Source of the DNA: a virus
Strand: one strand, 5' to 3'
Virus record (IMG/VR): IMGVR_UViG_3300031972_001084
Coordinates: 1 to 43,085 of that record
Length of the DNA stretch: 43,085 nucleotides
Part shown: positions 3,694 to 43,085 of the stretch, piece after piece
Layout of the letters: each line of letters opens with the position of its first letter
Position numbering within the stretch: the stretch's first letter is position 1
The notes under the pieces: model-generated
Told to the model about the DNA's origin: nothing
The model's input: only the letters and a program-made list of their open reading frames with translations
The model's database searches: none
Program-made: the position numbers and the translations under genes

Positions 3694-3697
3694 GACG

Positions 3698-5795: not shown

Positions 5796-5801
5796 CAAAA
5801 A

Positions 5802-5827: not shown

Positions 5828-5854
5828 GATAATATCGGAGCGGATTAAGGACGC

Positions 5855-6585: not shown

Positions 6586-6597
6586 AGGAAGACCGAC

Positions 6598-7808: not shown

Positions 7809-9947
7809 ATGGCATGGAGTAGACTGGATTTTGATGCCTTTACAGGTTTCGAGTGTGGCGGCTCGTTTACATCCCTAGTCAACGTTTCGACCTCGGGGAC
7901 GGTCGCGTATGAAAACGGTCCAGCGCGAAGCGGTCAATTTTCTTTATCGTTAGCGGCTGGTTCGTCGATTACGTTTAACGCACTGGGGCAATTAGCGTCT
8001 GATCCGTGTTTTCACCAAGTCTCGGTTTTACTTAACAACGCTTCGGCTCATTTGGAGATCAAAGTAGGAGCGTCTGACGATACGAGCACGAACTATGTTC
8101 TCAGTATCAAGCCGACCGAAATCGAGTTTTCAGACGCGGACGGAACGCAGTTGTTCATCGATAGCACTGTGAACCTATCCATAAATAAGTGGCATGACGT
8201 TTTCGTTTGGATTGAAAGTTATCTGACGAACGAAGCGTGGGAAGTGTGGATCGATCGGGAGTTGGTAGATAGCGGTACTGGCGCGAATTTTGACGTCGAT
8301 GGGTTTAACGGAAGGGACTTGATCCTTGAGTCGGTGACGGGGGGCGCGACGCTATATGTGGATAATTGGGTTTCTCACCAAAACGACGATTTCCCAACCT
8401 CTTCAGAAGAGCGGTGGATTAAAAAGCCACACATAGAAAGATGGGGTTCTGACACGGTTGGAGCGACGGCTGATTGGTCGGACGCGACTTCGCAATCGAG
8501 CGCATTGGATACGGGCAATTTTGGTAACTGGTCAGCGCGACCAATAGACGCAAACGAAGGAGGGTTTCAATCACAAACCGCCCTCAATTATCTCGGTCTG
8601 GTTTGCGATACATCGAGCGGCGGTTCACTACTACAAGAATATGTCGAAGTTGACGCAACGTGGTCGCCGGGACAAGGCGTTTTTAGTTCAGACGGGGCGC
8701 GGTTTATTTACTGCAATAGCGATAATGAGTCGATCTCTCAAGTGTCGCTGTCTACTGCTTACGATTTAGAAACTCGGGGGAGTGTTACTAGCTGGAATCC
8801 AACGCAGACCGGGGCAACGATTCGAGGGTTCTGTTTTGGTGATGACGGAAGCAAGCTATACATTCGAGCAAACGACGGGACGGAAACGGTTTATCAATAT
8901 AGCTGTTCGTCTGCGTACGATATTTCAACCACTCCGACATATGACAACAAATCGAAATCCGGTTTCGATGCCGGAACGTCGGCGGTCGATCAGGGGTTCA
9001 AGCCGCTTTTCAACGCTGACGGAACAGCGCTGTTTCTAAATGATAGCGCTGGAATCCATAAATACTCTGTCAGTACCGCGTGGGATATATCGACGGCTGG
9101 AACAACATCGACACAAACGCTGGACACGACACCGGACGCCGACGGTTTTGATTTCTATCGGAACGGGAATCTTCTGGTCGTTGTTCAAGATGGCGGTCTT
9201 ATTCGAGGCTATCATTGCGCCGACGGCGCTTATGACATTGGAACGAATTGTACGGCTCCCGGCGAAGCGCAAACATACGCCGACGAAAACTTCCAGTGGT
9301 GCTCAATACGCGGAAGCCGTTTACTGGCTGGTGATCCAAGCGCGAATCGAATCGGGCTGTATCAAATACCGGTGTCTCCTTTCGCGCCAGATTCCGAGCC
9401 GATCTGTAGCGGAGGACCGAACGGAAATCCGTGGTGTGACGGCGACGGCTCAACACCACCGGCGCGGCTAATAATTAACGCCTTAATTCACAAAGGAACC
9501 GTGACTACAGGGACCTTCCAAATCGTGTTAGGGAAGTGGGACGGCTCAACGTCTCCTACCGTACAGGGCGCGTCAATCGGGACCAACTATTCCGCTGGTC
9601 AGGCGCTATATCCTTTGGGTCTTGTCGATAGGACCGAATACGCGGCGTACGGAATCAAGACGGTAGACGGCTCCGCTGATGTATTACATGAAGCGGTAGC
9701 GCTCATGGCGTTGATGGATTTGCCAACGGTTCCAGAATACGAACTTGAGGGCTATCGATGGCGCGATGACGACGGCTCCGAGTCCGGTGCAACGTGGCAC
9801 GAAACCCAAGACACCGACACGACTCAACCTGCCGAAACGAATGTACGCCTTAGAACATTAATCGACGTCACGAACGATCCAGAGTCGAATCAGGTGACGC
9901 TCCAATATCGCAAGGTCGGCGAAACAGAATGGAACACAATCGAATGA
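7809..9947 (+). CDS. Tail fibre/adhesin with LamG-like and propeller-repeat domains
   Basis: Encodes 712 residues. Residues about 1-195 resemble a concanavalin/LamG-like sandwich (WHDVFVWIES, WEVWIDRELVDSGTG, TLYVDNW). Residues about 270-510 hold at least four blade-like repeats of about 50 residues, each with a variant of STAYDIST (TAYDLETRG, SAYDISTTP, TAWDISTAG, GAYDIGTNC) after an F-DG-KLYI-type strand, as in beta-propeller phage proteins. The C-terminal LRTLIDVTNDPESNQ...LQYRKVG block is a common phage fibre ending. Composition is more AT-rich than in the head genes, as expected for an exchangeable host-range gene. Confidence 0.75.
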   Translation: MAWSRLDFDAFTGFECGGSFTSLVNVSTSGTVAYENGPARSGQFSLSLAAGSSITFNALGQLASDPCFHQVSVLLNNASAHLEIKVGASDDTSTNYVLSIKPTEIEFSDADGTQLFIDSTVNLSINKWHDVFVWIESYLTNEAWEVWIDRELVDSGTGANFDVDGFNGRDLILESVTGGATLYVDNWVSHQNDDFPTSSEERWIKKPHIERWGSDTVGATADWSDATSQSSALDTGNFGNWSARPIDANEGGFQSQTALNYLGLVCDTSSGGSLLQEYVEVDATWSPGQGVFSSDGARFIYCNSDNESISQVSLSTAYDLETRGSVTSWNPTQTGATIRGFCFGDDGSKLYIRANDGTETVYQYSCSSAYDISTTPTYDNKSKSGFDAGTSAVDQGFKPLFNADGTALFLNDSAGIHKYSVSTAWDISTAGTTSTQTLDTTPDADGFDFYRNGNLLVVVQDGGLIRGYHCADGAYDIGTNCTAPGEAQTYADENFQWCSIRGSRLLAGDPSANRIGLYQIPVSPFAPDSEPICSGGPNGNPWCDGDGSTPPARLIINALIHKGTVTTGTFQIVLGKWDGSTSPTVQGASIGTNYSAGQALYPLGLVDRTEYAAYGIKTVDGSADVLHEAVALMALMDLPTVPEYELEGYRWRDDDGSESGATWHETQDTDTTQPAETNVRLRTLIDVTNDPESNQVTLQYRKVGETEWNTIE

Positions 9948-10225
9948 CGATAGGTTGCATGGGAACCGCCCCGGATCATTGCTGTTACCTCGGCGAAGGC
10001 GGCGTCTGTCCGTACGTCGAAGAGAGGACTGTTCCGGGTCGTCGTTGGGCTTGCGGCTTGATGCGTAAGCTCGGAGATTGGAACCTCGTCATGGCGACGC
10101 CAGAGTACCGGGAGAACGTCGCGCCGTGGCTCGAGCCGCTCGGGATCAATTGTCGCGATTGGCCCCAAGATCATCCGGGCGCTCGATGCTCGACTTGCGG
10201 TTGGGGGATAAACGATGGCGATTGA
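9944..10225 (+). CDS. Small Cys-rich putative zinc-binding phage protein
   Basis: Encodes 93 residues; the ATG at 9944 overlaps the previous TGA (an in-frame ATG at 9929 would add five residues). It has eight cysteines in C...CC...C, C, C and C-C groups (DHCCYLGEGGVCPYVEE, RRWACGL, GARCSTCGWG). The CxYLGEGGxCPYxEExTxxGRRWxCGL pattern is shared by small phage proteins encoded beside tail-fibre genes. It may bind metal and help fibre assembly, but the role is not known. Confidence 0.6.
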   Translation: MTIGCMGTAPDHCCYLGEGGVCPYVEERTVPGRRWACGLMRKLGDWNLVMATPEYRENVAPWLEPLGINCRDWPQDHPGARCSTCGWGINDGD

Positions 10226-13200
10226 AAAACTTGTCCCTAATGCCAACGCGAATCCGGCGACCGTTCTCGCGGATAACGACTATACCGATCTGAACGAAAC
10301 CGTCGCGCTGTTCGACAGCGTTTTCAATACCACGCTGACAGACGAAGAGACCGGGACAGCGACTTGGACATTGCTCGATATTTCGACGGCTCCCGCGTCG
10401 ATTACATCGATGACGTTCCGCGCTCGCGGCGGCTTTCAAAATTGGTCGAATGATACGACCGAATACACGCTTTCGCTGTCGGTCGGTGGTGACACGTTTA
10501 GTCTCGTTTGGGACGCGGAGACTGACGGCAACGGACAGTCCACGAAAACGGTCGATTTAAGTACCGGCACAAACTATCCCTATACCGAAGCGCAAATCAA
10601 CGCGGCGACGGTAACGCTTGACCAAACGAATTGGGTCAGAGTCAAGGGCGCGGATGGTTCCTCGTTCCAGATCGACGCTTTCGAAATGGAGGTCGATTTC
10701 GCCGCCGCTTACGAGATGGACGCCGATCCCGGCGCGTTCACGCTGACCGGGATCGCCAACGCAATCGCGAAGGACGCTCGATTTACGCTGGCGGCTTCGT
10801 CGAACATCGCGGCGAGTGGAGAGAACACGACCGCGCAATTGACCGCGCCAACGGGCAAAACAACGGCTCAATTTGGCGGCGGTCGAATACAGGACGACGA
10901 GAATCCGACGGACGCGGTTGATATCGGAGCCGACGAGTACCGAGAGGATGAATGGTGTATCGAGGCGACGACGAAGGCGATCGCCGGTTCGCAATACGAG
11001 TTCCGAGTTCTCGTTGATGGCGAGGAATTAGACACCTATACCGTCACGCCGAAGTGGACGATCGAGGCGGCTGGCGCGAACGAATTGGACGCTTCGCCGG
11101 GAGCGTTCACGCTTTCTGGTCAAGATGCCGACTTCGACCATTTCTTCCATCTCCATCCCGACGCCGGGGCGTTCGTTGTCAGCGGTGTCGATGCGGACAT
11201 TCACCTCGCTTTCTTCATGGAAGCCGAGGCGGGTTCGTTTGTACTAGCTGGAACAGATGCCGACTTTGCTGTCATTCGACACCTTGAAGCCGAAGCCGGG
11301 AGCTTTGCGGTTGCTGGACAGGACGCCGAATTCCAACGCGGACACGTGGTCGCCGCTGAAGCTGGTTCGTTTGCGCTCACTGGTGTCGATGTAGCGTTCG
11401 CGCTTGGCGTAGCGATGGAAGCCGAAGCCGGGACGTTTGCCGTTGCCGGTCAGGACAACGCGTTCCAGCGTGGCTACGTTGCCGATCTGGAAGCGGGATC
11501 GTTCACGCTGGCGGGGATCGACGCGGACCTGAATCGAGGACTCGTTGTTCCGGCGGAATCCGGCTCGTTCGTGCTCGCTGGAATCGATGCCGCGCTAGGT
11601 CGTGGGTTGACAGTTGAACTCGACGCCGGATCGTTTGTTCTGGCAGGACAGGACGCCGAATTCCAGCGCGGATACGTGGTCGCCGCTGAAGCCGGTTCGT
11701 TTGCGCTGGCGGGGCAAGACGCCGACCTCGACTACACAATCCATTTCGACGCCGAAGCCGGTTCGTTCTTACTCACCGGGATCGACGCGACGCTCGACTA
11801 TCAACAGGGCTTCCCGGCTGAAGCGGGGTCGTTCGTATTAACCGGACAGGACGTCGCCTTCGACCTTGGCTTCGCACTCGATCTGGAAGCCGGTTCGTTT
11901 ACGCTGGCAGGACAAGACACGGACCTTCTCCGGGCGCTCCTTTTCAGCGCCGAAGCCGGTTCATTCACTCTCTCCGGTCAAGACGCCGAACTCGATGCTC
12001 AACGAGCGCTCGAGGCGGAGTCTGGATCGTTCGTTTTAAGCGGCACCGACGCCGCGCTTGATCGCTCTCTCATACTCCAAGCCGAAGCGCAGACCTACGT
12101 CCTTGCAGGGCAGGACGCAAACCTCGCGACTACGGATGTATTTCCGGCTGAAGTGGGGGCGTTCTCGCTGGATGGTGTCGGTGTCGCCTTTGCACTCTCC
12201 CGCGTATTCCAAGCCGAGACAGGTTCGTTCGTATTAGCAGGACAGGACGCGGACTTCCTCCGGGGCTATCACTTCGACGCCGATCCCCAGACGTTTGTCG
12301 TCACCGGGATCGATGCCAATTTCCTCACGGCGGGAGCGTTCCAAGCTGAGACAGGAACGTTCGCGCTTGCTGGTCAAAACATTGAACTCGTCCGCTCGCT
12401 AATCCTAGAAGCCGAGGCGCAGTCATTCACGCTATCAGGGCTAGACGCCGGCTTAAACGTCACCGACGTATTCCCCGGCGAGACGGGCGCGTTCAATGTA
12501 ACCGGGGTCGCCGCCGAGCTTCAGTATCAGCGGCAACTCGGAGTCGATCCGGGCGCGTTCATTCTGGCGGGGGTCGCCGCCGATCTGGACAAGGGATATC
12601 ACGTAGACCTCGAGGCGGGATCGTTCGCTCTGACAGGCGTCACCGCCGAGCTGGATGCGAGCTTCTATCTCGCCGCCGAGACGGGCGTCTTCAACCTCAC
12701 CGGGATCGATGCGAACCTTCAGGCTGAAGGGGCGCTCATGGCGGAGACCGGGGCGTTCGTTCTGGCTGGAACAGACGCCGACCTGATCCGCGATCTGATT
12801 GTCGAGCTGGATGCGGGATCGTTCCTCCTGACAGGCGAGAACGCGGACCTCGATCGAACCGATCTGTTCCCGGCGAATACGGGCGTCTTCACGGTCGCCG
12901 GACAGGACGCCGCGTTCCAGTACGCTCGCCAGTTCAGCGCCGAAGTGGGGTCGTTCATCCTCGCCGGTGCCGACGCCGACTACCTTCGCGGCTATCACCT
13001 TGACGCCGACCCGGAATCGTTCGCGGTATCCGGGATCGACGCCGCCTTCCAGCTCGGGAAAGTCCTCGAAGCCGACGCCGGTTCGTTCGTGCTTGCCGGG
13101 ACGGATGCGGACTTCCTCGGAGCGTGGCAACTCGACGCCGAAGCTGGCGCGTTTGTCCTCACTGGCGAGGACGCGAATCTGGCAACGCTTGGGAACTTCC

Positions 13201-14171
13201 CGGCGAATACTGGACCGTTCGTTCTGTCCGGGATCGACGCGGCGTTTGCGCTTGACCAGATCGTCGAGTTCGATGCCGGCTCCTTCGTGCTGGCGGGAGC
13301 CGAGGCGGACCTGAAGCGCGGCTATCATCTCGACCTCGAGACCGGGGCGTTCAACCTGACAGGACAGGTCGCCGAATTGACGCGATCCTTGGTGCTGGAA
13401 GCCGAGTCTCGGGGCTTTACCGTTGCTGGCGAGGACGCTGACCTTCTCGCGAGCCGTAACATAGCCCTAGAAGCCGCTCAGTTCGACGTAGACGGCGTTT
13501 CTGTCGATCTGAAGGCAACGTATCAAGTCAGCGCGGAGTCGGCGGCTTTCGCGGTTTCAGGAGAGGACGCCAACCTCAATACGACGGGCGCTTTCCCGGC
13601 ACAAACGGCGTCCTTCTCTGTTGCTGGCGAAGATGCCGCGCTCAAGCGCCAGCGTCGTCTCGATTGCGTTGCCGGCGCGTTCACATTTGCCGGCGAAGAT
13701 GCGGACCTCTCCAAGACGTTCACGCTCGGCGCTGAGACCGGCGATTTCGATCTCGCTGGCGAGGATGCGGCGTTCGATCGGGCGCTCGAAGCGGCACTCG
13801 AAGCCGGGGCGTTTACGGTCCAAGGACAGGACGCCGGACTGACGGCTGACCGGTCCATCGAGGCAGAATCGGGAAGTTTTGACGTCGTCGGCGAAGATTC
13901 TGAATTCGTCTTCGGCTTCGTTCTCGATGCCGAGACCGGCGCGTTCATTCTGGACGGCGAAAACGCCGAACTCCTTGGCGCGTATAGGCTTCCGGGAGAA
14001 GAGGGTGGTTTCGTACTAACCGGAACCGAAGCGAATTTCATATACTCCGAAATCATTCTCGGTGAAGACCGTGTCCCGGTACACAAGATTCGATTGGCAG
14101 AAAAGGATATCATTCGGTTGAGGGACGTTGTAACGGTCAGACTCGAGCAACAAATCAGGACGATTAAATAA
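10215..14171 (+). CDS. Giant tandem-repeat fibre-like protein (45 x 22 residues)
   Basis: Encodes 1318 residues. Residues about 1-165 are a beta-rich head. About 215-290 contain a domain with IQDDENPTDAVDIGADEY and YEFRVLVDGEELDTYTVTP, seen in other phage structural proteins. Residues 292-1281 are 45 exact-length 22-residue repeats (consensus AEAGSFxLAGxDAxLxRxxxL). A short C-terminal tail ends in VRLEQQIRTIK. There is no signal peptide or enzyme motif. The periodic short strands suggest a long beta-solenoid or stacked-strand shaft, so a virion fibre or spike is likely. It overlaps its neighbour genes. The function is inferred from architecture and position. Confidence 0.75.
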   Translation: MAIEKLVPNANANPATVLADNDYTDLNETVALFDSVFNTTLTDEETGTATWTLLDISTAPASITSMTFRARGGFQNWSNDTTEYTLSLSVGGDTFSLVWDAETDGNGQSTKTVDLSTGTNYPYTEAQINAATVTLDQTNWVRVKGADGSSFQIDAFEMEVDFAAAYEMDADPGAFTLTGIANAIAKDARFTLAASSNIAASGENTTAQLTAPTGKTTAQFGGGRIQDDENPTDAVDIGADEYREDEWCIEATTKAIAGSQYEFRVLVDGEELDTYTVTPKWTIEAAGANELDASPGAFTLSGQDADFDHFFHLHPDAGAFVVSGVDADIHLAFFMEAEAGSFVLAGTDADFAVIRHLEAEAGSFAVAGQDAEFQRGHVVAAEAGSFALTGVDVAFALGVAMEAEAGTFAVAGQDNAFQRGYVADLEAGSFTLAGIDADLNRGLVVPAESGSFVLAGIDAALGRGLTVELDAGSFVLAGQDAEFQRGYVVAAEAGSFALAGQDADLDYTIHFDAEAGSFLLTGIDATLDYQQGFPAEAGSFVLTGQDVAFDLGFALDLEAGSFTLAGQDTDLLRALLFSAEAGSFTLSGQDAELDAQRALEAESGSFVLSGTDAALDRSLILQAEAQTYVLAGQDANLATTDVFPAEVGAFSLDGVGVAFALSRVFQAETGSFVLAGQDADFLRGYHFDADPQTFVVTGIDANFLTAGAFQAETGTFALAGQNIELVRSLILEAEAQSFTLSGLDAGLNVTDVFPGETGAFNVTGVAAELQYQRQLGVDPGAFILAGVAADLDKGYHVDLEAGSFALTGVTAELDASFYLAAETGVFNLTGIDANLQAEGALMAETGAFVLAGTDADLIRDLIVELDAGSFLLTGENADLDRTDLFPANTGVFTVAGQDAAFQYARQFSAEVGSFILAGADADYLRGYHLDADPESFAVSGIDAAFQLGKVLEADAGSFVLAGTDADFLGAWQLDAEAGAFVLTGEDANLATLGNFPANTGPFVLSGIDAAFALDQIVEFDAGSFVLAGAEADLKRGYHLDLETGAFNLTGQVAELTRSLVLEAESRGFTVAGEDADLLASRNIALEAAQFDVDGVSVDLKATYQVSAESAAFAVSGEDANLNTTGAFPAQTASFSVAGEDAALKRQRRLDCVAGAFTFAGEDADLSKTFTLGAETGDFDLAGEDAAFDRALEAALEAGAFTVQGQDAGLTADRSIEAESGSFDVVGEDSEFVFGFVLDAETGAFILDGENAELLGAYRLPGEEGGFVLTGTEANFIYSEIILGEDRVPVHKIRLAEKDIIRLRDVVTVRLEQQIRTIK
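11088..14057 (+). repeat. Array of 45 in-frame 66-bp units
   Basis: Each unit encodes 22 residues with Gly5, Phe7, Gly11 and Asp13 as the best-kept positions (D/E-A-E-A-G-S-F-x-L-x-G-x-D-A-x-L). No unit has an insertion or deletion: 45 x 66 = 2970 bases, exactly the span given. Units ending in Phe before a Pro-start unit recur every 5 or 6 units (11, 16, 21, 27, 32, 38; also 44), showing a longer period laid over the basic one. A lone related motif (DADPGAFTLTG) lies upstream at about 10719. Confidence 0.9.
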
Positions 14172-35131: not shown

Positions 35132-36157
35132 ATGGCGACTCAAAATTCCGTTATCAGTTACGCGCCGCAACCGTATTTCGAAGACGGCACCGCGACCATT
35201 GTCGCCAACACCAACGTCTCGTCGATCGAAAACACTCCGGGCATTTTCGACCCGGACCTGTCGAACTTCTCGACCGTGGTTCCGACCTCGAGCGCGGCGT
35301 CGTTCAAAGCGAAGATCGACTTCGCCAAACAGAGCGCTCACTTGACCGGCGCGGACCTGACGCTCGGCTTCATTGGTTGCTCGCTCCTGACCTACGAAGA
35401 CAGCGGCGGTCTCCCCGATCTGGCGACGGAATTTTCCGAGAGTATCGATTGCCGAATGTCGGCGAACATCTCCGCCGTGACCGACGAGCTGGTGAGCTAC
35501 GCGCACAACTCGCAAGACACCATCCACTCGTTCGATCGCGAACCACTTCCGAGCGTGATCTCGGGCGGTCGCGCCAACCTGATCTTCACCGGTCTCGGCA
35601 AGTCGAACTCAGGGTCCACCGGGACGGTGTACGTGACCGTCGAGCGGACGGCGGCAAACGTCGCGGCACGACCTCACGCTCGATTCCAGATCGGGCATTT
35701 GTTCATAGGCGTCGATGTTCCGATCACGATCGACCCGCGATCCTTTTCGTGGACGATGGTCGTCGAGAATGAGCGCTTCTTCGCGAGGGACTTCGGCGCG
35801 ATCAATTCGGACGGAACTCTGGTCAAGCGATCCACCGGGGAGATCACCAAGATCGGTCAGGAACTTCTCACCGGCTCGACCGTCTCGGGCGTCTCTCCGA
35901 TCGTGGCGAGCGTGACGCCAAACCTGTTCGATCTCATCAAGGTCAATACGTCCTACCCGCTCCTCCTGAATCCATTCCCGAGAGCGCAAGTGACCGAGGC
36001 GTCGCTGACGGTTGAAGAGGCGAACTTCACGACCCGCCAAAACTTCTTCTCGATCTACGGATTCTTCAGCGATCCGCTCGAGGTTCAGACTGACGAATAC
36101 CGGGACGGACTCGAGTCGCAGTATCGCGCCAGATTCCGTTTTCAAGAGACTCGCTAA
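35132..36157 (+). CDS. Tail structural protein, last gene of the late operon
   Basis: Encodes 341 residues. The ATG at 35132 follows the previous stop by two bases and has GGGGA upstream; an in-frame ATG at 35120 is possible. The product is beta-rich, Ser/Thr-rich, lacks Lys clusters and has no signal peptide or catalytic motif. It probably forms part of the tail tip. It ends at the convergence with the leftward operon. No family is recognised. Confidence 0.6.
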   Translation: MATQNSVISYAPQPYFEDGTATIVANTNVSSIENTPGIFDPDLSNFSTVVPTSSAASFKAKIDFAKQSAHLTGADLTLGFIGCSLLTYEDSGGLPDLATEFSESIDCRMSANISAVTDELVSYAHNSQDTIHSFDREPLPSVISGGRANLIFTGLGKSNSGSTGTVYVTVERTAANVAARPHARFQIGHLFIGVDVPITIDPRSFSWTMVVENERFFARDFGAINSDGTLVKRSTGEITKIGQELLTGSTVSGVSPIVASVTPNLFDLIKVNTSYPLLLNPFPRAQVTEASLTVEEANFTTRQNFFSIYGFFSDPLEVQTDEYRDGLESQYRARFRFQETR

Positions 36158-36224
36158 AAATCCACCAGTTCGCTCCTACGCTCACAAAAAAGGGCGGGGA
36201 ATACGATCGGACCAGTCCCTACCT

Positions 36225-36254
36225 AAAACGCGCTCAGAATCGATCTGAGAGCGT
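36225..36254 (-). terminator. Second terminator of the leftward operon
   Basis: Read leftward: ACGC, one T x C mismatch, CTCAGA, loop TCGAT, TCTGAG, GCGT, then TTTTAGG. This is the same element as at 1778-1808, there in the + direction (about 30 of 37 bases match). It would catch transcripts passing the stronger terminator at 36285-36315. On the + strand the hairpin also forms but lacks a T-tract, so any stop of the late operon would be weak. Confidence 0.6.
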
Positions 36255-36284
36255 CTCAGCGGTATCGAGGGCTTTTCACAAAGC

Positions 36285-36315
36285 AAAAAAAAACGCCCCG
36301 GCGCGATGCCGGGGC
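36285..36315 (-). terminator. Strong intrinsic terminator of the leftward operon
   Basis: Read leftward, GCCCCGGC and GCCGGGGC form a perfect 8-bp stem with a five-base loop, followed by G and nine Ts (the A-run 36285-36293 on the + strand). It lies 20 bases after the stop of the last leftward gene. Confidence 0.9.
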
Positions 36316-36334
36316 AAATGGGGGTTTCGTTGGA

Positions 36335-36547
36335 CTACCGGGAACGCTTCCGCGTCATGGCGAGAAAGAGACGCCATGTCGGGACTTTCATGAGATACGC
36401 CCCGGCTTCGTAATACTGCCACGCTCTCGTTGTCAGACCAACAACTTCGGCGGCTTGTGCTTGAGTGAGTTTTGCGTCCGTCCGGGCGGCGAGGACTTCT
36501 TCCGCTGACGGTTGCGTCGTGACGGTCATGGGATGGCGTTTTCTCAT
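36335..36547 (-). CDS. Small helix-turn-helix (XRE-like) protein
   Basis: Encodes 70 residues. The start at 36547 (MRKRHPMTVTTQP) overlaps the previous stop and has GGAGGA upstream. Residues about 18-50 (LAARTDAKLTQAQAAEVVGLTTRAWQYYEAG) form an XRE/Cro-type helix-turn-helix, followed by a short helix (RLFLAMTRKRSR). It probably binds DNA as a dimer and may control phage operons. It is the last gene of the leftward operon, so it is not an obvious lysogeny repressor. Confidence 0.7.
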   Translation of the reverse strand: MRKRHPMTVTTQPSAEEVLAARTDAKLTQAQAAEVVGLTTRAWQYYEAGAYLMKVPTWRLFLAMTRKRSR

Positions 36548-37074
36548 GCTCCCATCCTCCGCTCGGCTTCGTACTCCATCCGGGCGGCGTACGCGTCGTC
36601 GATCCACTCTTGCCGCTCCTTCGCCAGTAGCGGAGCGCGGCGTTCCAGTTTCTCGACGTCCAGAGCGAGAACCTTCCCGGTCCCGGCGCAATCTGGACAG
36701 GCGCGATCGTAGCCGCCGCCGAAGTAACTTTCCTGTTCTTCAGGATCGAACGCTTCGTCGAACTCGCTCGCCGTGAACGCGACGCCTTCGAGACCGTCGA
36801 TCAGACAAGTCCCTTCGCCGCGACAGCGATCGCAAATCTCCCACGCGAAATAGTGGCGCGGCAGGAGTGACTCCATCTCCTTCGGCGGAAGCTCCGCCGG
36901 GAAGTGCTTGGTCCCGTCGTCGGCTTCAACGTGGAGCAAGTTTCGCTCATCGTCATCGCGTTCGATCTCCGCCAGATACTTCTCGGCGCATTGATCGAAA
37001 TCGCCGTAATACAACTCGGTCTCTCGGATCGAGATGATCGTGCTCGGGTCAGTCCTCTTCAGCGTGTATTTCAT
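36544..37074 (-). CDS. DnaJ-type zinc-finger-like protein
   Basis: Encodes 176 residues, with GGAGAAAG before the start. Two CxxCxGxG-like pairs (CDRCRGEGTC and CPDCAGTGKV), about 45 residues apart, form a DnaJ central-type zinc module; no J domain is present. The N-terminus is beta/alpha, and the C-terminus (about 140-176) is a charged helix. Such proteins are frequent in phage early operons and may act as protein-binding adaptors. The 36547 gene starts inside its stop. Confidence 0.65.
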   Translation of the reverse strand: MKYTLKRTDPSTIISIRETELYYGDFDQCAEKYLAEIERDDDERNLLHVEADDGTKHFPAELPPKEMESLLPRHYFAWEICDRCRGEGTCLIDGLEGVAFTASEFDEAFDPEEQESYFGGGYDRACPDCAGTGKVLALDVEKLERRAPLLAKERQEWIDDAYAARMEYEAERRMGA

Positions 37075-37201
37075 TTTCTTTCTCCTGTTGTTCGTGTTCG
37101 AAGTAATCGGGGTCGTTCAGTTTGCCGCGCTTCTCAACTTCGGCGACGCGCTGTCGCTCGAGTTCGTTCGCGGATCGGGGATCGAGATCGAAGTCAATCA
37201 T
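37049..37201 (-). CDS. Acidic 50-residue microprotein
   Basis: Begins ATG at 37201, overlapping the TGA of the preceding gene (ATGA), with GGGAGGGA upstream at the right distance, and ends at 37049 inside the start of the zinc-finger gene. The product (MIDFDLDPRSANELERQRVAE...) is a charged helix. Start/stop coupling to both neighbours supports real translation although it is short. Confidence 0.65.
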   Translation of the reverse strand: MIDFDLDPRSANELERQRVAEVEKRGKLNDPDYFEHEQQEKENEIHAEED

Positions 37202-37443
37202 CTACGTCCCTCCCAGACTTGAATCGCGGCGTCGTAGTCTCGGGCGATCACGTAGCGATCCAGACGGGACGCCAGAGCGCACTCAAACGAATTGTGAGAG
37301 CGTTTCAGCGCCTCGAGATACTGAGCGACTTGGAACGTGAAGACACGCTCTCTCTGGTGATCTGAGAGCTTCTTGGCGATCTGTAGTGAATCGAGCGTAT
37401 TCCCGATTCGATCGCGTGCCGTGTTGGTCTTGATTCTGGTCAT
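37198..37443 (-). CDS. Hypothetical helical protein
   Basis: Encodes 81 residues. The start at 37443 (MTRIKTNTARDRIGN) overlaps the previous TGA and has AAGGAGA upstream; longer in-frame extensions are shadow. The product is basic and mostly helical (LSDHQRERVFTFQVAQYLEAL). A DNA segment here (about 37270-37310) partly resembles the hairpin element at 36225-36254, perhaps by chance. Function unknown. Confidence 0.6.
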   Translation of the reverse strand: MTRIKTNTARDRIGNTLDSLQIAKKLSDHQRERVFTFQVAQYLEALKRSHNSFECALASRLDRYVIARDYDAAIQVWEGRR

Positions 37444-37637
37444 GATCCGTCTCCTTCGAGTGAGCGTTTCACTTCGGCGATGGTCGGGAAGATATCGCCC
37501 CGGATTTTCGCCCCGGTTGATTTCGGTTGATAGAAAAAGCCCGAGGCGTCTTGAGCCGGCTTGATCGATCCGATCCACTTCCGATCGAGGTAAACGTCGA
37601 TCCGGGACGAGCGGTTTCTCCTGTAGCTGATTGTCAT
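37440..37637 (-). CDS. Hypothetical protein
   Basis: Encodes 65 residues starting MTISYRRNRSSRIDVYLDRK, with AAGGGGA upstream. It predicts a small beta sheet followed by one helix (IFPTIAEVKRSLEG). The layout resembles small DNA- or RNA-binding folds, but no family is recognised. It overlaps both neighbours by 4 bases. Confidence 0.6.
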   Translation of the reverse strand: MTISYRRNRSSRIDVYLDRKWIGSIKPAQDASGFFYQPKSTGAKIRGDIFPTIAEVKRSLEGDGS

Positions 37638-37822
37638 GATTCATCCCCTTCCGTTTCCATCTCGGCGAGGATTGTTCCGGCGCGGTTACGCTGACCGAAT
37701 TGTTCGAGACCGTGAGCGATGCCGCGAGCGATCTCCTGTTCGTCTTCATTGCCGCAAGCTAGGGTTAAGGCGTATTGAAATCCGGCGGCTAAAACGAGGC
37801 GTTGGCTTGGACTTAATTTCAT
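37634..37822 (-). CDS. Hypothetical helical protein
   Basis: Encodes 62 residues (MKLSPSQRLVLAAGFQYAL...), using the standard GGAGAAATGAA cassette of this operon before its start at 37822. Two helices are predicted, the first hydrophobic on one face. Function unknown. Confidence 0.6.
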   Translation of the reverse strand: MKLSPSQRLVLAAGFQYALTLACGNEDEQEIARGIAHGLEQFGQRNRAGTILAEMETEGDES

Positions 37823-37832
37823 TTCATTTCTC

Positions 37833-38246
37833 CTATTCGTCATCCCAGTGACGCGAGTCTTGGTTTTCGAACGACCCGCGCCGCGTTTCCAGAACGACGA
37901 AATACTTCGTCGGTCCATCCGTCTCGCGAAGGAAGTCTTCGTGGTCGAGGTTCCTGTTCTCGCACCACTCGATTTCCTCGAGACAATTCCGGCCCCAATC
38001 TTGGCGAGCCGTTTCCGAGAGCTTCTTGGCGAGCTTCTCGATGTCCGCCTTGGCGTTCACGGCGTCTTCCTCGAAGGCGTATTGCTGGCTCGCTTCGAGG
38101 ACCGTGTCGCGTCCCCACCAGCCGCCCTCTTCAGGACCGCCGAAGTTATAGAACGAGACCGAGGCGTACAGGGACAAGAAGATTCCTTGCGGCTCCTTGG
38201 CTTCTTTACAGATTGCGTCGAACGCGCTGGCAATGTTTCCGCTCAT
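37833..38246 (-). CDS. Hypothetical acidic protein
   Basis: Encodes 137 residues. The start at 38246 (MSGNIASAFDAICKEA) has GGGAGAGAAA upstream and overlaps the previous stop. The sequence is acidic, with aromatic patches (SFYNFGGPEEGGWWGRD) and a long central helix (AKADIEKLAKKLSETARQDW). Soluble; no known motif. Confidence 0.6.
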   Translation of the reverse strand: MSGNIASAFDAICKEAKEPQGIFLSLYASVSFYNFGGPEEGGWWGRDTVLEASQQYAFEEDAVNAKADIEKLAKKLSETARQDWGRNCLEEIEWCENRNLDHEDFLRETDGPTKYFVVLETRRGSFENQDSRHWDDE

Positions 38247-38662
38247 GAGTTTCTCTCCCGGTTGTCGATGACTGATTGATTGGCGTGAGCGCCGGTGTTC
38301 CCGTTCGAATCGATCTCTCGCGTGAATACCGATTGCGAGAATTCGACGAAGGTTCGATCTGGAACAATGTCCCGACTGTTGTCGAGGTAGTCGTCCCACC
38401 ACCGAATCCCGAAGGACAGCCGAGGGACGGCGAACTTCGGGACGTCCTCGGCGGCGATCCAGAACAGCGCGTCGTTGCGACCGCCAGTTCCGGGAACCGG
38501 CTCGCCGCTCTTCAGGTCAGGGAGTGTCTCGAACTCGCCGGCGTATTCCCCGGTCACTCCAAATTCTTCCGTCAGCCAGTTCTCGAATTCCGCGATGTTC
38601 TCGGGTCCGATTATGGTTCCGGTCCAGACGCACAATTGAGCGTTCGTATGATTCAATTTCAT
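38243..38662 (-). CDS. Hypothetical acidic alpha/beta protein
   Basis: Encodes 139 residues with the GGAGAAACGAA cassette before ATG 38662. The start of the protein (NAQLCVWTGTIIGPENIAEFENWLTEEFG) suggests a ferredoxin-like or other small alpha/beta fold; the middle has SGEPVPGTGGRNDALFWI, which looks conserved. Low pI; might mimic DNA or bind host proteins, but that is speculation. Confidence 0.6.
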   Translation of the reverse strand: MKLNHTNAQLCVWTGTIIGPENIAEFENWLTEEFGVTGEYAGEFETLPDLKSGEPVPGTGGRNDALFWIAAEDVPKFAVPRLSFGIRWWDDYLDNSRDIVPDRTFVEFSQSVFTREIDSNGNTGAHANQSVIDNRERNS

Positions 38663-38898
38663 TTCGTTTCTCCGTGGTTCGTTTCAAGGTTGATTCCGGC
38701 GGCTTTCAAACGCCGTTCGATCTCGGTGCAATCCCAACAGACCGGCGCGAGTAATCCCATCTCGGCGCGGTCGGCTTCGAGCTTGCGTTGCTCGCCTCGC
38801 AACGTGGCGAAGCGCTTCAGGGAAAACGCGTTCGCCCAGCGTAGGTGACGGAGCTGACCGAGGGTGAGGTGCTTGTGCCATTTGGCGGTTCGTTTCAT
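38659..38898 (-). CDS. Hypothetical basic protein
   Basis: Encodes 79 residues (MKRTAKWHKHLTLGQLRHLRW...). The N-terminal half is basic and helical; CWDC at about 55-58 could bind metal. It overlaps the next start. The basic charge suggests nucleic-acid binding. No family recognised. Confidence 0.55.
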   Translation of the reverse strand: MKRTAKWHKHLTLGQLRHLRWANAFSLKRFATLRGEQRKLEADRAEMGLLAPVCWDCTEIERRLKAAGINLETNHGETK

Positions 38899-38912
38899 GT
38901 CATTTCTCCTAG

Positions 38913-39335
38913 TTAGAACGGAAGGTGTTTGTCTTCTTCGCGCTGGCGTTCCAGAGCTTCCTCTCGGGCGTCGCGTTCACGTTGCCAGCGTTCGGCTTTG
39001 GATACCGGCTCGCGTTCACCGAACAGGGTTCCCCAAGGGAGATTCGAATCGACGTTCTCGCCGTCGCAGAACTCCCAAGCGTCGAGCGCGTTCATCATGT
39101 AATTACGAACGCCTACGAGGATCGTGAAGATCGCCTCGCGCTTGCTCTTGATGTAACAGCAACCGGTATGCACGTTCCAAAACGCCATAGATGAATTGCC
39201 GTCGTCACCGTAGAACACGGCGGTCTCGTATCGAAGGTGTTCGACCTTGACGTTGTCCATGCCCTCGGCAACTACAAAACGCTCCCGGCGGAGCGCGTCC
39301 CATGCTTCGTATGTTGTGTCAGTTGGTAATCTCAT
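38913..39335 (-). CDS. Hypothetical protein, preceded by hairpin element copy 1
   Basis: Encodes 140 residues. Start at ATG 39335 (MRLPTDTTYEAWDAL), with the GGAGAAACGAA cassette; upstream extension runs into the hairpin element and is not coding. The central part (FYGDDGNSSMAFWNVHTGCCYIKSKREAIF) is unusual for its aromatic and Cys content; the C-terminus is a charged helix (ERWQRERDAREEALERQREE). Function unknown. Confidence 0.6.
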   Translation of the reverse strand: MRLPTDTTYEAWDALRRERFVVAEGMDNVKVEHLRYETAVFYGDDGNSSMAFWNVHTGCCYIKSKREAIFTILVGVRNYMMNALDAWEFCDGENVDSNLPWGTLFGEREPVSKAERWQRERDAREEALERQREEDKHLPF

Positions 39336-39350
39336 TTCGTTTCTCCTTGG

Positions 39351-39436
39351 TTCGTTGGTTTCAGTTTCGAGCCACGTGAGGCGCTCGCTAGTGGGTCCGA
39401 CAGACTTCGCCGGACCCACTCACTAGCGTCTAACTT
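39351..39436 (-). repeat. Structured intergenic element, copy 1
   Basis: Read on the + strand, conserved GAGGCGCTCGCTA is followed by a stem of AGTGGGTCCG (39390-39399) with CGGACCCACT (39411-39420), then CACTAGCGTCTAACTT. An alternative 8-bp stem CGCTAGTG/CACTAGCG (39386-39393 with 39421-39428) competes. It lies between a stop and the leader of the next leftward gene. See copies 2 and 3. Confidence 0.85.
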
Positions 39437-39743
39437 AAAAGTCCATAAACCCTCGGTCATCGATCATTCGAGCATATTCCGGCGGCGGACTAGGACAACC
39501 GCAATCCTCGGTCGAGCGGCAAGGTTCGATCGCGTTCAGCCGGGAGATGATTTCCTTGGCGTACGCTTCGTGGATACAGTGAATTTCTTCCGACGGATTC
39601 CAGTATCCGGGGCGGAGGTAAATCCAGTACGACCAAGGACTATCGGGATCGCACTCGTCGTGCTCGATCCAGTGTTCCTCGATCAGATCGGGATGGGCTT
39701 CGATCCAGCGTTCGACCGTCTTGAGTTTTCGATTCGATTTCAT
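39435..39743 (-). CDS. Hypothetical protein
   Basis: Encodes 102 residues with the GGAGAAACGAA cassette. Rich in Trp, Glu and His (ERWIEAHPDLIEEHWIEHDE), with a late CGCPSPPPEY segment and Cys at about 80-90 that could bind zinc. The stop touches the hairpin element. No family recognised. Confidence 0.55.
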   Translation of the reverse strand: MKSNRKLKTVERWIEAHPDLIEEHWIEHDECDPDSPWSYWIYLRPGYWNPSEEIHCIHEAYAKEIISRLNAIEPCRSTEDCGCPSPPPEYARMIDDRGFMDF

Positions 39744-39753
39744 TTCGTTTCTC

Positions 39754-39969
39754 CTATGACCATTGGTCCGTCTCGAGGTAGTTGTACCCGGAGCGATGCG
39801 TGAGCGTCAGCCCCGTCTCCTGATCGGGATCGTCGATCTCGTATTCGATCTTCCAGATCAGGTCGGTCTTGACTACTTGAACGTTGCCGACAAATCCGGC
39901 GAAGCGAACTTCCGCCATGATCGGACCTTTCGCTTTTCGGATGACCTTCAATAGTTCGTCGCGTTTCAT
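39754..39969 (-). CDS. Hypothetical small beta protein
   Basis: Encodes 71 residues (MKRDELLKVIRKAKGPIMAEV...), AGGAGAG upstream. An alternative frame (39740-39985) covers the same area but lacks a ribosome binding site and looks random. The product predicts one helix, then four strands. It overlaps the next gene's end by 4 bases. Confidence 0.55.
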   Translation of the reverse strand: MKRDELLKVIRKAKGPIMAEVRFAGFVGNVQVVKTDLIWKIEYEIDDPDQETGLTLTHRSGYNYLETDQWS

Positions 39970-40466
39970 TTCCGCTCTCCTTCAAAATTGCTCGGTTCCT
40001 GACAGGCGTGACGGAGGTCTTCGCGACCTTCGCGGGGATCGTCTTCGTCGGCGTCGAGCTGGCGGTACTGGAGGATCAGCTCGCCGTGGTGATTGCGGAA
40101 GACCCAACCGAGAAGGAAGCAATCTTCGAACAGCGTGTAGTCGGACATTGATCCCCGGACGCCCTTCTCAGCCGGGATGACATACAGCTCGGTTCCACCG
40201 GCTTCGTCGCCGTAGCCGCCGGCGTAGGTCTTCACGTTTTTCGGGTCGCCGTAGAGAACCAGCTCGGGGCGATCGCCGTGGCGCTTCCAAGCCGCCTCGC
40301 AGGAGTGGATACCGGTCTGGAAGCGGAGCTTCCGATTCAGAGCGTCGGCTTCCCATCCCAACCAATAGGGCTTGTATGCGTACTCGAGAACGTGGGCGGT
40401 CAGAGTCTCGCCGAGACCGTTGATCGTGACGGCTGAAGTTCTGCGAATTTTGTAGATGTATTCCAT
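39966..40466 (-). CDS. Hypothetical protein, preceded by hairpin element copy 2
   Basis: Encodes 166 residues. Start ATG 40466 with GGAGAAAAT upstream. Alternating strands with Tyr and Gly (KIRRTSAVTINGLGETLTA; YGDPKNVKTYAGGYGDEAGG), and an acidic Gln/Asp segment (RQLDADEDDPREGRED) near the end. No known family. Confidence 0.6.
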   Translation of the reverse strand: MEYIYKIRRTSAVTINGLGETLTAHVLEYAYKPYWLGWEADALNRKLRFQTGIHSCEAAWKRHGDRPELVLYGDPKNVKTYAGGYGDEAGGTELYVIPAEKGVRGSMSDYTLFEDCFLLGWVFRNHHGELILQYRQLDADEDDPREGREDLRHACQEPSNFEGERK

Positions 40467-40479
40467 GATTTTCTCCTAG

Positions 40480-40567
40480 TTCGTTTCGGTTCAATTTCGA
40501 GTCGCGTGAGGCGCTCGCTACGAGGTCCGAATCCCCTGACCCGGACCTCGTCACTAGCGTCTAACTT
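40480..40567 (-). repeat. Structured intergenic element, copy 2
   Basis: GAGGCGCTCGCTA, then a stem of ACGAGGTCCG (40520-40529) with CGGACCTCGT (40542-40551), then CACTAGCGTCTAACTT, all read on the + strand. Compared with copy 1, three stem pairs changed on both sides with pairing kept. The TAG stop of the gene at 40561 is part of the element. Confidence 0.85.
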
Positions 40568-40986
40568 GTCTCCGAGGATATGTCCCGGAAATTGGTCAGC
40601 GTATGCCGACCGACCCACTTCGGAACGACGTTCTCGAGAAGTTCGTGCCGGACGCGGCGGTGGTATTTCTTGCCGCTCGCCAGTTGCTCGGCGCGTTTCG
40701 TTTCGTAGTTACCGCGCCACGCTTCCGCGATCTGGTCGGTGGGCATGAAATCGAAATGCCGGGGCGTGACCGTCGGGTACGAAACGACGAGCGTTCCGAC
40801 GTTGTTTCCGTGGCGGTCGATGACGTCAGCCCATACCGGGAACCAGTGAGTGTCGGCGGGGATGGCGTCGCAAAAAGCGTTCAGTTCGTTGTAGCCGTTA
40901 CGGTTCATTTCTTTCTCCTTTTGGATTTGATTGATTCGTTGGTTGTGCTTTCTCAATGCTTCGGCTTTGTTCGTGAATGAGTTCAT
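40561..40986 (-). CDS. Hypothetical protein with two in-frame starts
   Basis: Encodes 141 residues from ATG 40986 (GGAGAACGAA) or 115 residues from ATG 40908 (AAGGAGAAAGAA). Both starts have the ribosome binding cassette of this operon, so two products may be made. The N-terminal 26 residues form a basic helix (NKAEALRKHNQRINQIQKEK). The body is alpha/beta (HWFPVWADVIDRHGNNVGTLVVSY), and the C-terminus is basic. Function unknown. Confidence 0.6.
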   Translation of the reverse strand: MNSFTNKAEALRKHNQRINQIQKEKEMNRNGYNELNAFCDAIPADTHWFPVWADVIDRHGNNVGTLVVSYPTVTPRHFDFMPTDQIAEAWRGNYETKRAEQLASGKKYHRRVRHELLENVVPKWVGRHTLTNFRDISSETS

Positions 40987-40995
40987 TTCGTTCTC

Positions 40996-41280
40996 CTATT
41001 TCCAGTTACCGAGGACGATCGCCCCGGATGCCGTCTTGTGGACCGGCTCGTCGTCTTGCTCTTCATCGCGCTTGGCGATCATGGCGTCGATGTTGCCGAA
41101 GACATGATCCAGCCAGTGTTCGCGAGTGGCTTGGTTGAGGTAGCAAATGTAGATCGATTCGACTTCGTATCCGTCGATCCCGGCGAAGTAGAAATACCCT
41201 TCGCCCCGGACCAGCTCGATATCCAGTTTCGGATACCGAGCGGCGATGGCGGCGTTCAAGTTTTTGATCGTTGCTTTCAT
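40996..41280 (-). CDS. Hypothetical phage protein (small alpha/beta)
   Basis: Encodes 94 residues with GGAGCACGAA before the start. IKNLNAAIAARYPKLDIELVR, then GYFYFAGIDGYEVESIYI, and LNQATREHWLDHVFG, is a compact pattern seen in phage hypothetical proteins. No function is assigned. It ends 10 bases before the next start. Confidence 0.6.
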   Translation of the reverse strand: MKATIKNLNAAIAARYPKLDIELVRGEGYFYFAGIDGYEVESIYICYLNQATREHWLDHVFGNIDAMIAKRDEEQDDEPVHKTASGAIVLGNWK

Positions 41281-41289
41281 TTCGTGCTC

Positions 41290-41793
41290 CTACTTGAAGT
41301 TGATTCCTGACCAATGACGCTTTCCCTTGTAGCCACAACGCTTGTAGACGTCGGGATAGGAGTGAGCGTCGAGTCGTCCGCGAGCACCGACGTAAACGTG
41401 CCAGCTCTGCCAATCGAGAGCGCGGAGAAGATTCCCTTCGTCCAGATTGACCATGTCAACTTCGACGCTGACCCAGAAGCCGTAGTCGTAGCCGGTCGGT
41501 TCGACTTCGAACTTCACGATTTGTTGACCGTATTTCTCGCGACTGGTGTCGCTGATATCCCGCTCGATGAAGGAGCGAAGATGATCGATCGCGGCTTGTT
41601 GCGACCGGTTCGGTTTTGTGTGCGCTTCGTAGTTGCGCTTCTGGACGCGCTTGGCTTCCCAACGTCCGCAATTGTTACAGCGCCAACCGGAGACGAAATC
41701 TCCGTCGTCGTTCCAATCGGGATCGGCTGACCAGAAGGTTTTGACTTGGCAATATTCGCCGTTGCAAAAATGTTCGCGTTGATTGTTTCTCAT
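41290..41793 (-). CDS. Hypothetical Cys-rich protein, preceded by hairpin element copy 3
   Basis: Encodes 167 residues with GGAGCACGAC upstream. The N-terminus has CNGEYC (about 10-15) and CNNCGRW (about 39-45), a probable zinc ribbon. The rest is alpha/beta (TSREKYGQQIVKFEVEPTGYDYG) with many aromatic residues. Possibly binds nucleic acid or protein; no family is recognised. Confidence 0.6.
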   Translation of the reverse strand: MRNNQREHFCNGEYCQVKTFWSADPDWNDDGDFVSGWRCNNCGRWEAKRVQKRNYEAHTKPNRSQQAAIDHLRSFIERDISDTSREKYGQQIVKFEVEPTGYDYGFWVSVEVDMVNLDEGNLLRALDWQSWHVYVGARGRLDAHSYPDVYKRCGYKGKRHWSGINFK

Positions 41794-41805
41794 GTCGTGC
41801 TCCTT

Positions 41806-41887
41806 TTCGTTTCGTTTCAGTATCGAGCGAGGCGCTCGCTATTGGGACCGGCTAACCGCTCCGGTCCCAATCACTAGCGTCTAACTT
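41806..41887 (-). repeat. Structured intergenic element, copy 3
   Basis: GAGGCGCTCGCT, then an 11-bp stem ATTGGGACCGG (41841-41851) with CCGGTCCCAAT (41861-41871), then CACTAGCGTCTAACTT, read on the + strand. Here a second hairpin, CGAGCG/CGCTCG (41824-41829 with 41833-41838), is perfect. The TAG stop of the gene at 41881 falls within the element. Confidence 0.85.
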
Positions 41888-42549
41888 TTCGGCGTGTAGT
41901 ACATATTGAAGCCGCCCCAACGATCCCGGCGAACCGAGATGTTCGTGGCTCCCTGCTCTTCCAGTTCCTTCCGGCGCTGGCTGACGGCGACTCGCTGTTC
42001 GCGCAACGTTCCATCGTAGAAGGACTCTTTCTTCCGTTGCGGCTTGCTGTCGTCTTCGCGAGGTTGAAGCGGCTGACCGTGAATCTTGTCAGCGAGCTTT
42101 ACCATCGCGTCGGCGTGGTTCCGAGCGCTCTTGGCTTGTGAGAGACACCGGTACTGTTCGGCTTGGCACTCATGCGCCCAAGTGACACCGTAACGGCGAA
42201 GCTCGGCGTTCTTGGGGCTTTCAAATTCGTCCCGAGTCATCGTGACCATTTTGTAAACGGCGCGGCGTCCGCGATATCCGTCTCGAATCTTGATCGTGCA
42301 AGTTTCCAGCCGGTCAGGATCGGCGCAATCTTCGGCGCGGCGTTCCTGTTCGTCGGCGTATTCGCGAAGGCTGACGATCACGTTATCGGTCAGTTCGCGG
42401 GACTCTTCGAGAGGGGCGTGATTGGCACCGGTGCAAACACCGTTGAAGTATCCCCAATCGACCGTGTAGCCATGCTTGCTCAAGCGACCATTCGGAAGCG
42501 CTTGTTGACGACCACAGATTTGGCAATGTCCGTTGTGAGTTGCTTTCAT
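41881..42549 (-). CDS. Phage zinc-finger protein of unknown role
   Basis: Encodes 222 residues. HCQICGRQQALPNGRLSKHGYTV followed by GYFNGVCTGANHAPLEESR (residues about 8-50) is a well-kept zinc-binding N-terminus (two Cys, then Cys/His) in phage hypothetical proteins. The middle is helical, and the C-terminus (RRDRWGGFNMYYTPKS) is basic. It may bind DNA or RNA. GGAGAACAAC lies before its start. It is the first large gene of the leftward operon. Confidence 0.65.
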   Translation of the reverse strand: MKATHNGHCQICGRQQALPNGRLSKHGYTVDWGYFNGVCTGANHAPLEESRELTDNVIVSLREYADEQERRAEDCADPDRLETCTIKIRDGYRGRRAVYKMVTMTRDEFESPKNAELRRYGVTWAHECQAEQYRCLSQAKSARNHADAMVKLADKIHGQPLQPREDDSKPQRKKESFYDGTLREQRVAVSQRRKELEEQGATNISVRRDRWGGFNMYYTPKS

Positions 42550-42575
42550 GTTGTTCTCCTAGTTTTCGTTTCGGT

Positions 42576-42662
42576 TCAGATGTTGGCGACGATCATGTTG
42601 AAGTAGCTGGCGTAGCGATAAGCCGCGACGCTGGCGAGAATTGCGTAGTTGAAAAGTTTCAT
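42576..42662 (-). CDS. Small membrane-type microprotein (28 residues)
   Basis: Starts ATG 42662 with CGGAGTCGAAC upstream and ends 42576. The product begins MKLFNYAILASVAAYRY and is hydrophobic and aromatic, long enough for one short membrane helix. It is the first recognisable gene of the leftward operon, 26 bases before the next. A leader peptide or small membrane toxin are both possible; little else can be said. Confidence 0.45.
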   Translation of the reverse strand: MKLFNYAILASVAAYRYASYFNMIVANI

Positions 42663-43085
42663 GTTCGACTCCGGTTCATTTTGGCTTGTCATCTTCAGGA
42701 CGGGGAGAGCCACTCCGCCGCCGACGCGTTCGCGTTTCGACGTTGCCGCCGCCGGTCCCGCTCTTGCGATCCCGACGGCGGTGGTTGACCTATTTGTTGG
42801 AGGAGTAGCCCGAAGCCTGTTCTCGTATCGCCATTCTCGAAAGGTTCCTTCACTTTCCTTGCCCGGTCTCGGGAAGCGGTGCGATCCGCGAGCCAGCATT
42901 TCGCTGGCGTGCCGCCAGCGTATTCCCCACGAAGGACTTTCGTCTAGCGAAACAGGGATGAACGGTAGTGATTACCCGACGAACGGTATATTTAGTCCCG
43001 CGAGGGTAACGAAAAAATAGTCCCATATCCGAGACGATTCCGGGCGGGTTTCTGAGAGGAAATTCTTTCGTGCGTATATATGGAG
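42663..43085 (-). promoter_or_regulatory. Non-coding, structured leader of the leftward operon
   Basis: No convincing gene is present in these 423 bases. The segment 42892-42919 has GCCAGC, GCTGGCG and CGCCAGC, so the middle part can pair with either side (mutually exclusive hairpins). Around 42970-43027 there are repeated AGTCCC and TTACCC/GGGTAA motifs and AT-rich runs that may hold the promoter (read leftward: GGGACTAAATATACC). A 14-codon ORF at about 42790-42835 was seen but not accepted. Confidence 0.4.

Follow-up and report, generated by a model that had tools for sequence, protein, structure and literature searches.

Three copies of a covarying hairpin in a phage small-gene operon: a candidate intercistronic RNA element

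What occupies the few wide gaps in an otherwise packed operon of small phage genes? The question is raised by a 43,085-nucleotide (nt) stretch of an environmental-metagenome phage (IMG/VR record IMGVR_UViG_3300031972_001084, positions 1 to 43,085; hereafter the window), in which a run of small genes on the minus strand extends from 42.5 down to 36.3 kb and carries a hairpin spacer in three copies. The gaps that hold this element measure 99, 94, and 87 nt and are taken up entirely, from stop codon to start codon, by the element and its leader; the remaining gaps of the operon range from -7 to 14 nt, save a single gap of 123 nt close to its far end. All three elements have the same orientation and lie between a stop codon and the next ribosome-binding site, dividing the operon into its first gene, a three-gene block, a second three-gene block, and the rest. 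With middling confidence, we propose an intercistronic mRNA hairpin, which would punctuate a polycistronic and probably early message through processing, 3′-end protection, or insulation.

The hairpin proper spans 39376-39436 (copy 1), 40506-40567 (copy 2), and 41827-41887 (copy 3), with the minus strand as the sense strand in all, and the copies score 88, 82, and 86 bits, respectively, with a covariance model (R1). Read 5′ to 3′, each consists of an invariant 15-nt arm, GTTAGACGCTAGTGA, a perfectly paired inner stem of 10, 10, or 11 bp (copies 1, 2, and 3), a free loop without sequence conserved among the copies, and a nearly invariant 15-nt arm, TAGCGAGCGCCTCAC, in which copy 3 has a single changed base (A to G). 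The 17-nt sequence AAGTTAGACGCTAGTGA is identical in all three copies, and the inner stem starts next to it. Stem letters are unlike between the copies (GTGGGTCCG/CGGACCCAC in copy 1, CGAGGTCCG/CGGACCTCG in copy 2, and TTGGGACCG/CGGTCCCAA in copy 3, each with one to two pairs more), and TAGCGAGCG comes behind the stem. Each following gene is preceded by an A-rich, structure-poor leader of 33 to 40 nt (CTCGAAAcTGAAACgAAcGAAc), then AGGAG and ATG. On the minus strand, this leader with its ribosome-binding site takes up 40 nt behind copy 1 (39336-39375, with AAGGAGAAACGAA, up to the ATG at 39335), 39 nt behind copy 2 (40467-40505, ATG at 40466), and 33 nt behind copy 3 (41794-41826, ATG at 41793); a AGGAGAAACGAAATG-like sequence precedes the start codons.

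A first-pass annotation, made from the letters alone, had reported three copies with shared blocks and stems of 10, 10, and 11 bp between genes of a leftward operon, and our analysis confirms this. The coordinates that it gave (39351-39436, 40480-40567, and 41806-41887) have the right ends, but their start points include part of the leader. The blocks that it gave as shared are indeed identical. Its statement that the stop codon is built into the element applies to copies 2 and 3, where the element supplies the last Ser codon and the TAG stop of the upstream gene (open reading frames [ORFs] 40561-40986 and 41881-42549, respectively), and only in part to copy 1, where the TAA of the upstream gene takes the first two A of the element.

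The 15-nt arms form an imperfect inverted repeat in register, with 11 of the 15 positions able to pair in the sense RNA and the same mismatches in every copy. This in-register duplex is the outline of the minimum-energy RNA fold in all three, with the outermost 2-bp step present only in copies 1 and 3. An alternative pairing of the flanks as CGCTA/TAGCG, pointed out in the first-pass annotation, is possible, but of the three copies only copy 3, and only when folded as DNA, has this out-of-register fold as its minimum. As sense RNA, each copy folds more stably than 200 of 200 dinucleotide shuffles (z between -4.0 and -4.9), the three sites rank among the most stable 61-nt segments of both operon and genome, and most of the leader stays unpaired in the fold predicted. 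Within the window, the 17-mer is present three times, with no further occurrence even at 3 mismatches, and three copies of it were found in none of 100 dinucleotide shuffles of the window (up to 3 mismatches allowed).

We then counted 20 pairs across the copies: 15 do not vary, 4 change on both sides, 1 changes on one side to U-G, and none is broken. The covariation score was matched by 5 of 500 shuffles of the 3′ letters among columns, and three sequences permit little better than this; chance estimates drawn from them are coarse. When the partner strand was slid by 1 to 3 columns, pairing fell from 100% to 28 to 42% and no two-sided change remained. Between copies 1 and 2, and likewise between copies 1 and 3, the two arms have changed at exactly matching positions, with chance probabilities of about 4e-4 and 3e-3, respectively, under a uniform model. 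The lone single-sided change, the A to G in copy 3, keeps the position paired, as U-G, in the sense RNA but gives a mismatch on the opposite strand. The simple reading of this covariation, that the shape of the hairpin is under selection for structure, is supported, in agreement with what the first-pass annotation had argued from both-sided stem changes. Template switching can change both arms of a quasi-palindrome at once without selection on RNA, and such correction is the one non-selective alternative to selection on structure; it is disfavoured because the arm mismatches, which frequent repair of this kind should have mended too, persist. Three copies that keep their pairing despite changed stem letters suggest that the element acts as a folded piece of mRNA.

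We favour the mRNA hairpin because the stem pairs change two-sidedly without a break, because the U-G pair of copy 3 is kept only in the sense RNA, because the folds are among the operon's most stable and beat all shuffles while the leader stays largely open, and because the placement between stop and ribosome-binding site is exact at three junctions, in one orientation, in a packed operon. On the minus-strand transcript, the hairpin would begin at the stop codon of the preceding gene and fold into an outer duplex, imperfect but invariant in sequence, and a perfect inner stem of free sequence, followed by an unstructured A-rich leader with the next ribosome-binding site, and it would thus mark the boundary of a translation unit at the RNA level. 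The double-stranded region of about 25 pairs might be cut by a host RNase of the RNase III type, or it might be a barrier to 3′ exonucleases behind each stop, so that one- and three-gene segments would end up as separate, stabilised mRNAs whose ribosome-binding sites lie exposed. As an insulator, the hairpin would keep the following leader and ribosome-binding site open. The frozen arms could mean that the lower duplex is read by sequence by some protein or RNase, and the free sequence of the inner stem agrees with a structural role.

An RNase III site calls for some two helical turns of double-stranded RNA between cistrons, and the predicted fold offers this (a 15-position imperfect duplex plus a 10- to 11-bp stem, from stop to ribosome-binding site). 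T7-type RNase III sites between early genes are likewise intercistronic hairpins with internal loops or mismatches, 5′ of the next ribosome-binding site, but they are not repeats with invariant arms, unlike the window elements. A search for tRNAs found none at the elements, and no Rfam family reached its gathering score; the only matches were at chance level, with E values up to 5, and lay outside the elements. Translational bypassing of the T4 gene 60 type was dropped as an explanation because each element precedes its own ribosome-binding site and start codon. A new regulatory or processing RNA element, one of the main ideas of the first-pass annotation, is the best reading left; we infer that the genes are transcribed as a single message, that the element acts as RNA and not as DNA, and that it functions in processing or insulation.

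Further copies were sought in IMG/VR, GTDB, and INPHARED, searches in which near-identical records may be left out. Pattern scans of IMG/VR gave no matches to the full element and none to the half-sites with a gap, and the 32 IMG/VR matches to the 15-mer GTTAGACGCTAGTGA showed no partner hairpin arm on inspection. The GTDB scan gave a single match (Stutzerimonas) without an extended stem, chance matches being expected for so loose a pattern, and blastn against INPHARED found no copy. The covariance model from the three copies, the check proposed in the first-pass annotation, matched only those copies across all loci tested, and it had no match in the scanned parts of the genomes of the virion-gene relatives Aminobacter phage Erebus and Stenotrophomonas phage CUB19 or of Xanthomonas phage XcP1. 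Searching IMG/VR with the early-operon proteins 41881-42549, 39966-40466, and 38913-39335 yielded no relatives, and the protein 41290-41793 led only to the sister contigs L008/L014 (as L049/L050), which represent one sister phage or two near-identical ones. Their terminase matches that of the window at 75%, and the protein 41290-41793, at 50%, is the single recognised early protein that they share with it. The first-pass annotation had held that a lack of copies in related phages, or relatives whose stems lose pairing, would speak against the element. The first is partly what we see, with the three collections negative and the sister junction empty; no relative with a stem that loses pairing was seen, the only early-operon relative being itself without the element. 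Because the collections contain only one such relative, the lack of copies says 'lineage-specific' rather than 'not real'.

Several observations weigh against an mRNA hairpin. The element has no homologue outside this genome in the collections searched and exists in three copies only; the sister phage lacks it, with a short gap at the junction in front of the 41290-41793 homologue; folding energy clearly favours neither strand; and cleavage by host RNase III is a candidate step only. The arms, moreover, are frozen, mismatches included, to a degree that an RNase III site would not require. Such conservation speaks for a binder that recognises the RNA or DNA by its sequence, and it is the least explained part of our proposal. 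Mainly because of these frozen arms, we keep a DNA-binding alternative that we consider unlikely: the invariant 15-bp arms would be an inverted-repeat binding site for a phage regulator, the spacer would be palindromic by origin or through template-switch correction of quasi-palindromes during replication (which could alter both arms together without RNA selection), and the element would work within the operon as an operator or a roadblock to transcription, a role proposed for the stoperators of cluster A. Stoperators lie in gene gaps in one orientation relative to transcription (PMC3029335), as the window elements do. However, perfect spacer pairing of 10 to 11 bp that differs from copy to copy is superfluous for DNA binding. 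The operon's first gene has the leader type in front of it but no hairpin element (window scan, up to 3 mismatches), and the lack of a copy there, where an operon promoter or operator would be needed, counts for the mRNA hairpin and against a DNA site.

A related comparison is offered by the extended start-associated sequences (ESAS) found in mycobacteriophages of cluster K. They are inverted repeats of 17 bp, imperfect and with a spacer that varies, next to an SAS, GGGATAGGAGCCC, and like the 15-bp repeat of the window they occupy wide gaps before the starts of non-structural genes (PMC3203893). Their authors regarded these inverted repeats upstream of starts as more likely DNA sites, a precedent for the regulator-binding alternative. 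Unlike the window element, ESAS have a spacer of 4 to 13 bp that is not described as a paired stem, and their repeat variation does not support RNA pairing (PMC3203893); membership in this class was rejected, as the window has 15-bp arms with a paired inner stem and no SAS consensus.

Stable GC-rich hairpins directly behind stop codons might also be terminators or attenuators without a U-tract, passed under antitermination or grading expression along the operon. The sister phage lends some colour to this idea. Other gaps of its operon contain four copies of another repeat, TTTCTTTTTG...GGCATAAT, which is promoter-like and is followed by a similar A-rich leader (L050 8313, 8987, 9587, and 11585); one copy lies directly behind a canonical U-tract terminator (9544-9565), and this pair stands one gene upstream of the homologous gene (L050 9544-9615). 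In the window, however, no T run was seen behind the stems, and none of the three copies is among the terminator-like sites listed for it, so that an intrinsic terminator was rejected and the first-pass annotation's remark on the missing U-tract stands. The operon itself ends in a canonical terminator that has a U-tract (36316-36294), and this difference from the elements is a further reason to prefer the mRNA hairpin. A restart of transcription would call for promoters, and we found no sigma-70-type promoter-like site in 36100-43085 (promoters of other types are possible) and no copy of the sister's TTTCTTTTTG..GGCATAAT motif in the window. We therefore judge termination or attenuation improbable. 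The absence of the element at the sister's homologous junction, with gaps filled differently, argues against its being needed by a particular gene. The wider gaps of small-gene operons in this phage group look like control points, filled with terminator- and promoter-like sequence in one lineage and with a hairpin in the other.

The sister's one recognised shared early gene also has other neighbours than in the window and no element, and three-gene blocks are flanked by repeats. These observations would suit a mobile or recombination element, that is, a short cassette spreading between genes or providing homology for gene-block swaps like T4-type PeSLs or integron attC sites, as would the stop codons in two frames with which the element opens. 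The first-pass annotation had raised a recombination joint for gene cassettes, an idea that has lost ground and that we now regard as improbable. Like the window element, attC is an imperfect hairpin behind a stop codon with conserved end 7-mers and a free inner stem, but it has the end order RYYYAAC 5′ / GTTRRRY 3′ and an integrase. The sense strand of the window element reads 5′ GTTAGAC ... GCCTCAC 3′ and the other strand 5′ GTGAGGC ... GTCTAAC 3′, the reverse of RYYYAAC...GTTRRRY on both, and attC was rejected. No tyrosine recombinase of the IntI type (PF00589) was matched in the record, which may be a fragment, and REP/RAYT was set aside with no match to the Y1 (TnpA-REP) transposase PF01797 in this phage record. 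Exact repeats of just 13 to 17 nt with unlike stems lower the homology available, and no copy was found in the other genomes searched. PeSLs (promoter early stem-loops) of T4-type phages are summarised as short repeated stem-loop cassettes between small early genes, like the window elements, and as mediators of gene shuffling (PMC4503421). They are promoter-terminator composites, whereas the window elements have no recognisable promoter- or terminator-like signal; we rejected PeSL for want of a promoter-like site in the operon region, within the limit on promoter type given above, and of a T run behind the stems.

The intercistronic mRNA hairpin gains from a comparison with cultured actinophages. 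Relatives of the operon gene 37833-38246 (PHROG 24642) occur in Wildcatvirus mycobacteriophages and Ronaldovirus Gordonia phages; in both groups the gene belongs to or adjoins a series of small genes, and most gaps of that series measure 74 to 119 nt. Structured hairpins, unrelated in sequence to the window element, fill about ten gene gaps per group, and 18 of the 19 gaps tested fold with z below -2. In Ronaldo (L055 6158-10262) and Guey18 (L056), ten gaps of 74 to 88 nt hold long near-perfect stems, each of different sequence; those of Ronaldo mostly continue with a second small hairpin, GGTY...RACC, and then AGAGAGAGGAAAGA-ATG. MaryV (L054 = 60669-76413; 2603-6839) and EniyanLRS (L057 1247-5482) have about ten gaps of 88 to 119 nt with structured RNA-like elements that have no credible Rfam match and that place a second hairpin before the ribosome-binding site. 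Four to five gaps of MaryV share a three-way junction whose helices change two-sidedly while the loops are nearly fixed (ACTTCRAACGT). At one orthologous gap, MaryV has GCTATGCGAG/CTCGCATAGC and EniyanLRS TCCATACGGG/CCCGTATGGA, several two-sided changes with the pairing kept; at 7657/3660, both arms differ between Ronaldo and Guey18, and the fold is kept in outline, not in every pair.

As in the window, the hairpins of both groups fill consecutive gaps of small-gene operons (74 to 119 nt), begin at or just behind the stop codon, have free stem sequence with kept pairing, and are followed by a short leader and ribosome-binding site, in operons that have one family of small genes in common with the window (37833-38246). 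Unlike the window, they have no sequence similarity to its element (model R1 gave no match), stand in nearly every gap rather than at every third gene, and in MaryV include three-way junctions and second hairpins. The resemblance lies in the plan; we claim no homology, and it is the design that recurs. This same layout in two actinophage groups, with the stems of one gap covarying between relatives, is a further reason for reading the window element as an mRNA hairpin. We found no published description of the Wildcatvirus and Ronaldovirus intercistronic hairpins in the literature searched.

The genes around the elements, all on the minus strand, begin with a 222-amino-acid (aa) protein upstream of copy 3 (41881-42549; PHROG 17208, function not assigned), whose last Ser codon and stop lie inside the element. 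Three packed genes separate copies 3 and 2 (41290-41793, 40996-41280, and 40561-40986, with gaps of 9 and 9 nt; 40561-41793), and three more separate copies 2 and 1 (39966-40466, 39740-39969, and 39435-39743, with 4-nt overlaps; 39435-40466). After copy 1 come 38913-39335, 38659-38898, and 38243-38662, with a 14-nt gap and a 4-nt overlap (38243-39335). Upstream of the operon, at 42960-43035, a direct repeat GGGACTA next to AT-rich stretches marks a candidate promoter/operator region. Elsewhere in the window, a 34-nt sequence with a dyad around AATCGAT recurs inverted at 85% (1774-1807 and 36226-36259), at both ends of the rightward virion-gene block, as a possible operator pair. A 1,318-aa ORF at 10215-14171 contains many 66-nt (22-aa) repeats, with homologous repeats in locus L007. 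Positions 1-870 look unlike the rest in composition and contain a 141-nt segment duplicated at 79% (88-228 and 730-870); this stretch may have been acquired recently or may stem from a join made in assembly.

It is poorly understood how phages can express each of the tiny, often exchangeable genes in a long run individually when all share one message. Structured gaps whose stems compensate offer a testable candidate for a punctuation mark at the RNA level. More tentatively, and as a generalisation that we think is rather less probable than the reading of the window itself, small-gene operons of unrelated tailed phages may be punctuated by structured intercistronic RNA cassettes with a common plan (stop, hairpin with compensating stem, open leader, ribosome-binding site) and no common sequence. 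They would be an undescribed recurrent class that makes small genes or blocks exchangeable, separately processed units of expression, and the window copies would be the first seen in this lineage. As cultured phage groups of Mycobacterium smegmatis and Gordonia terrae have the same layout, these ideas are testable without the uncultured phage of the window.

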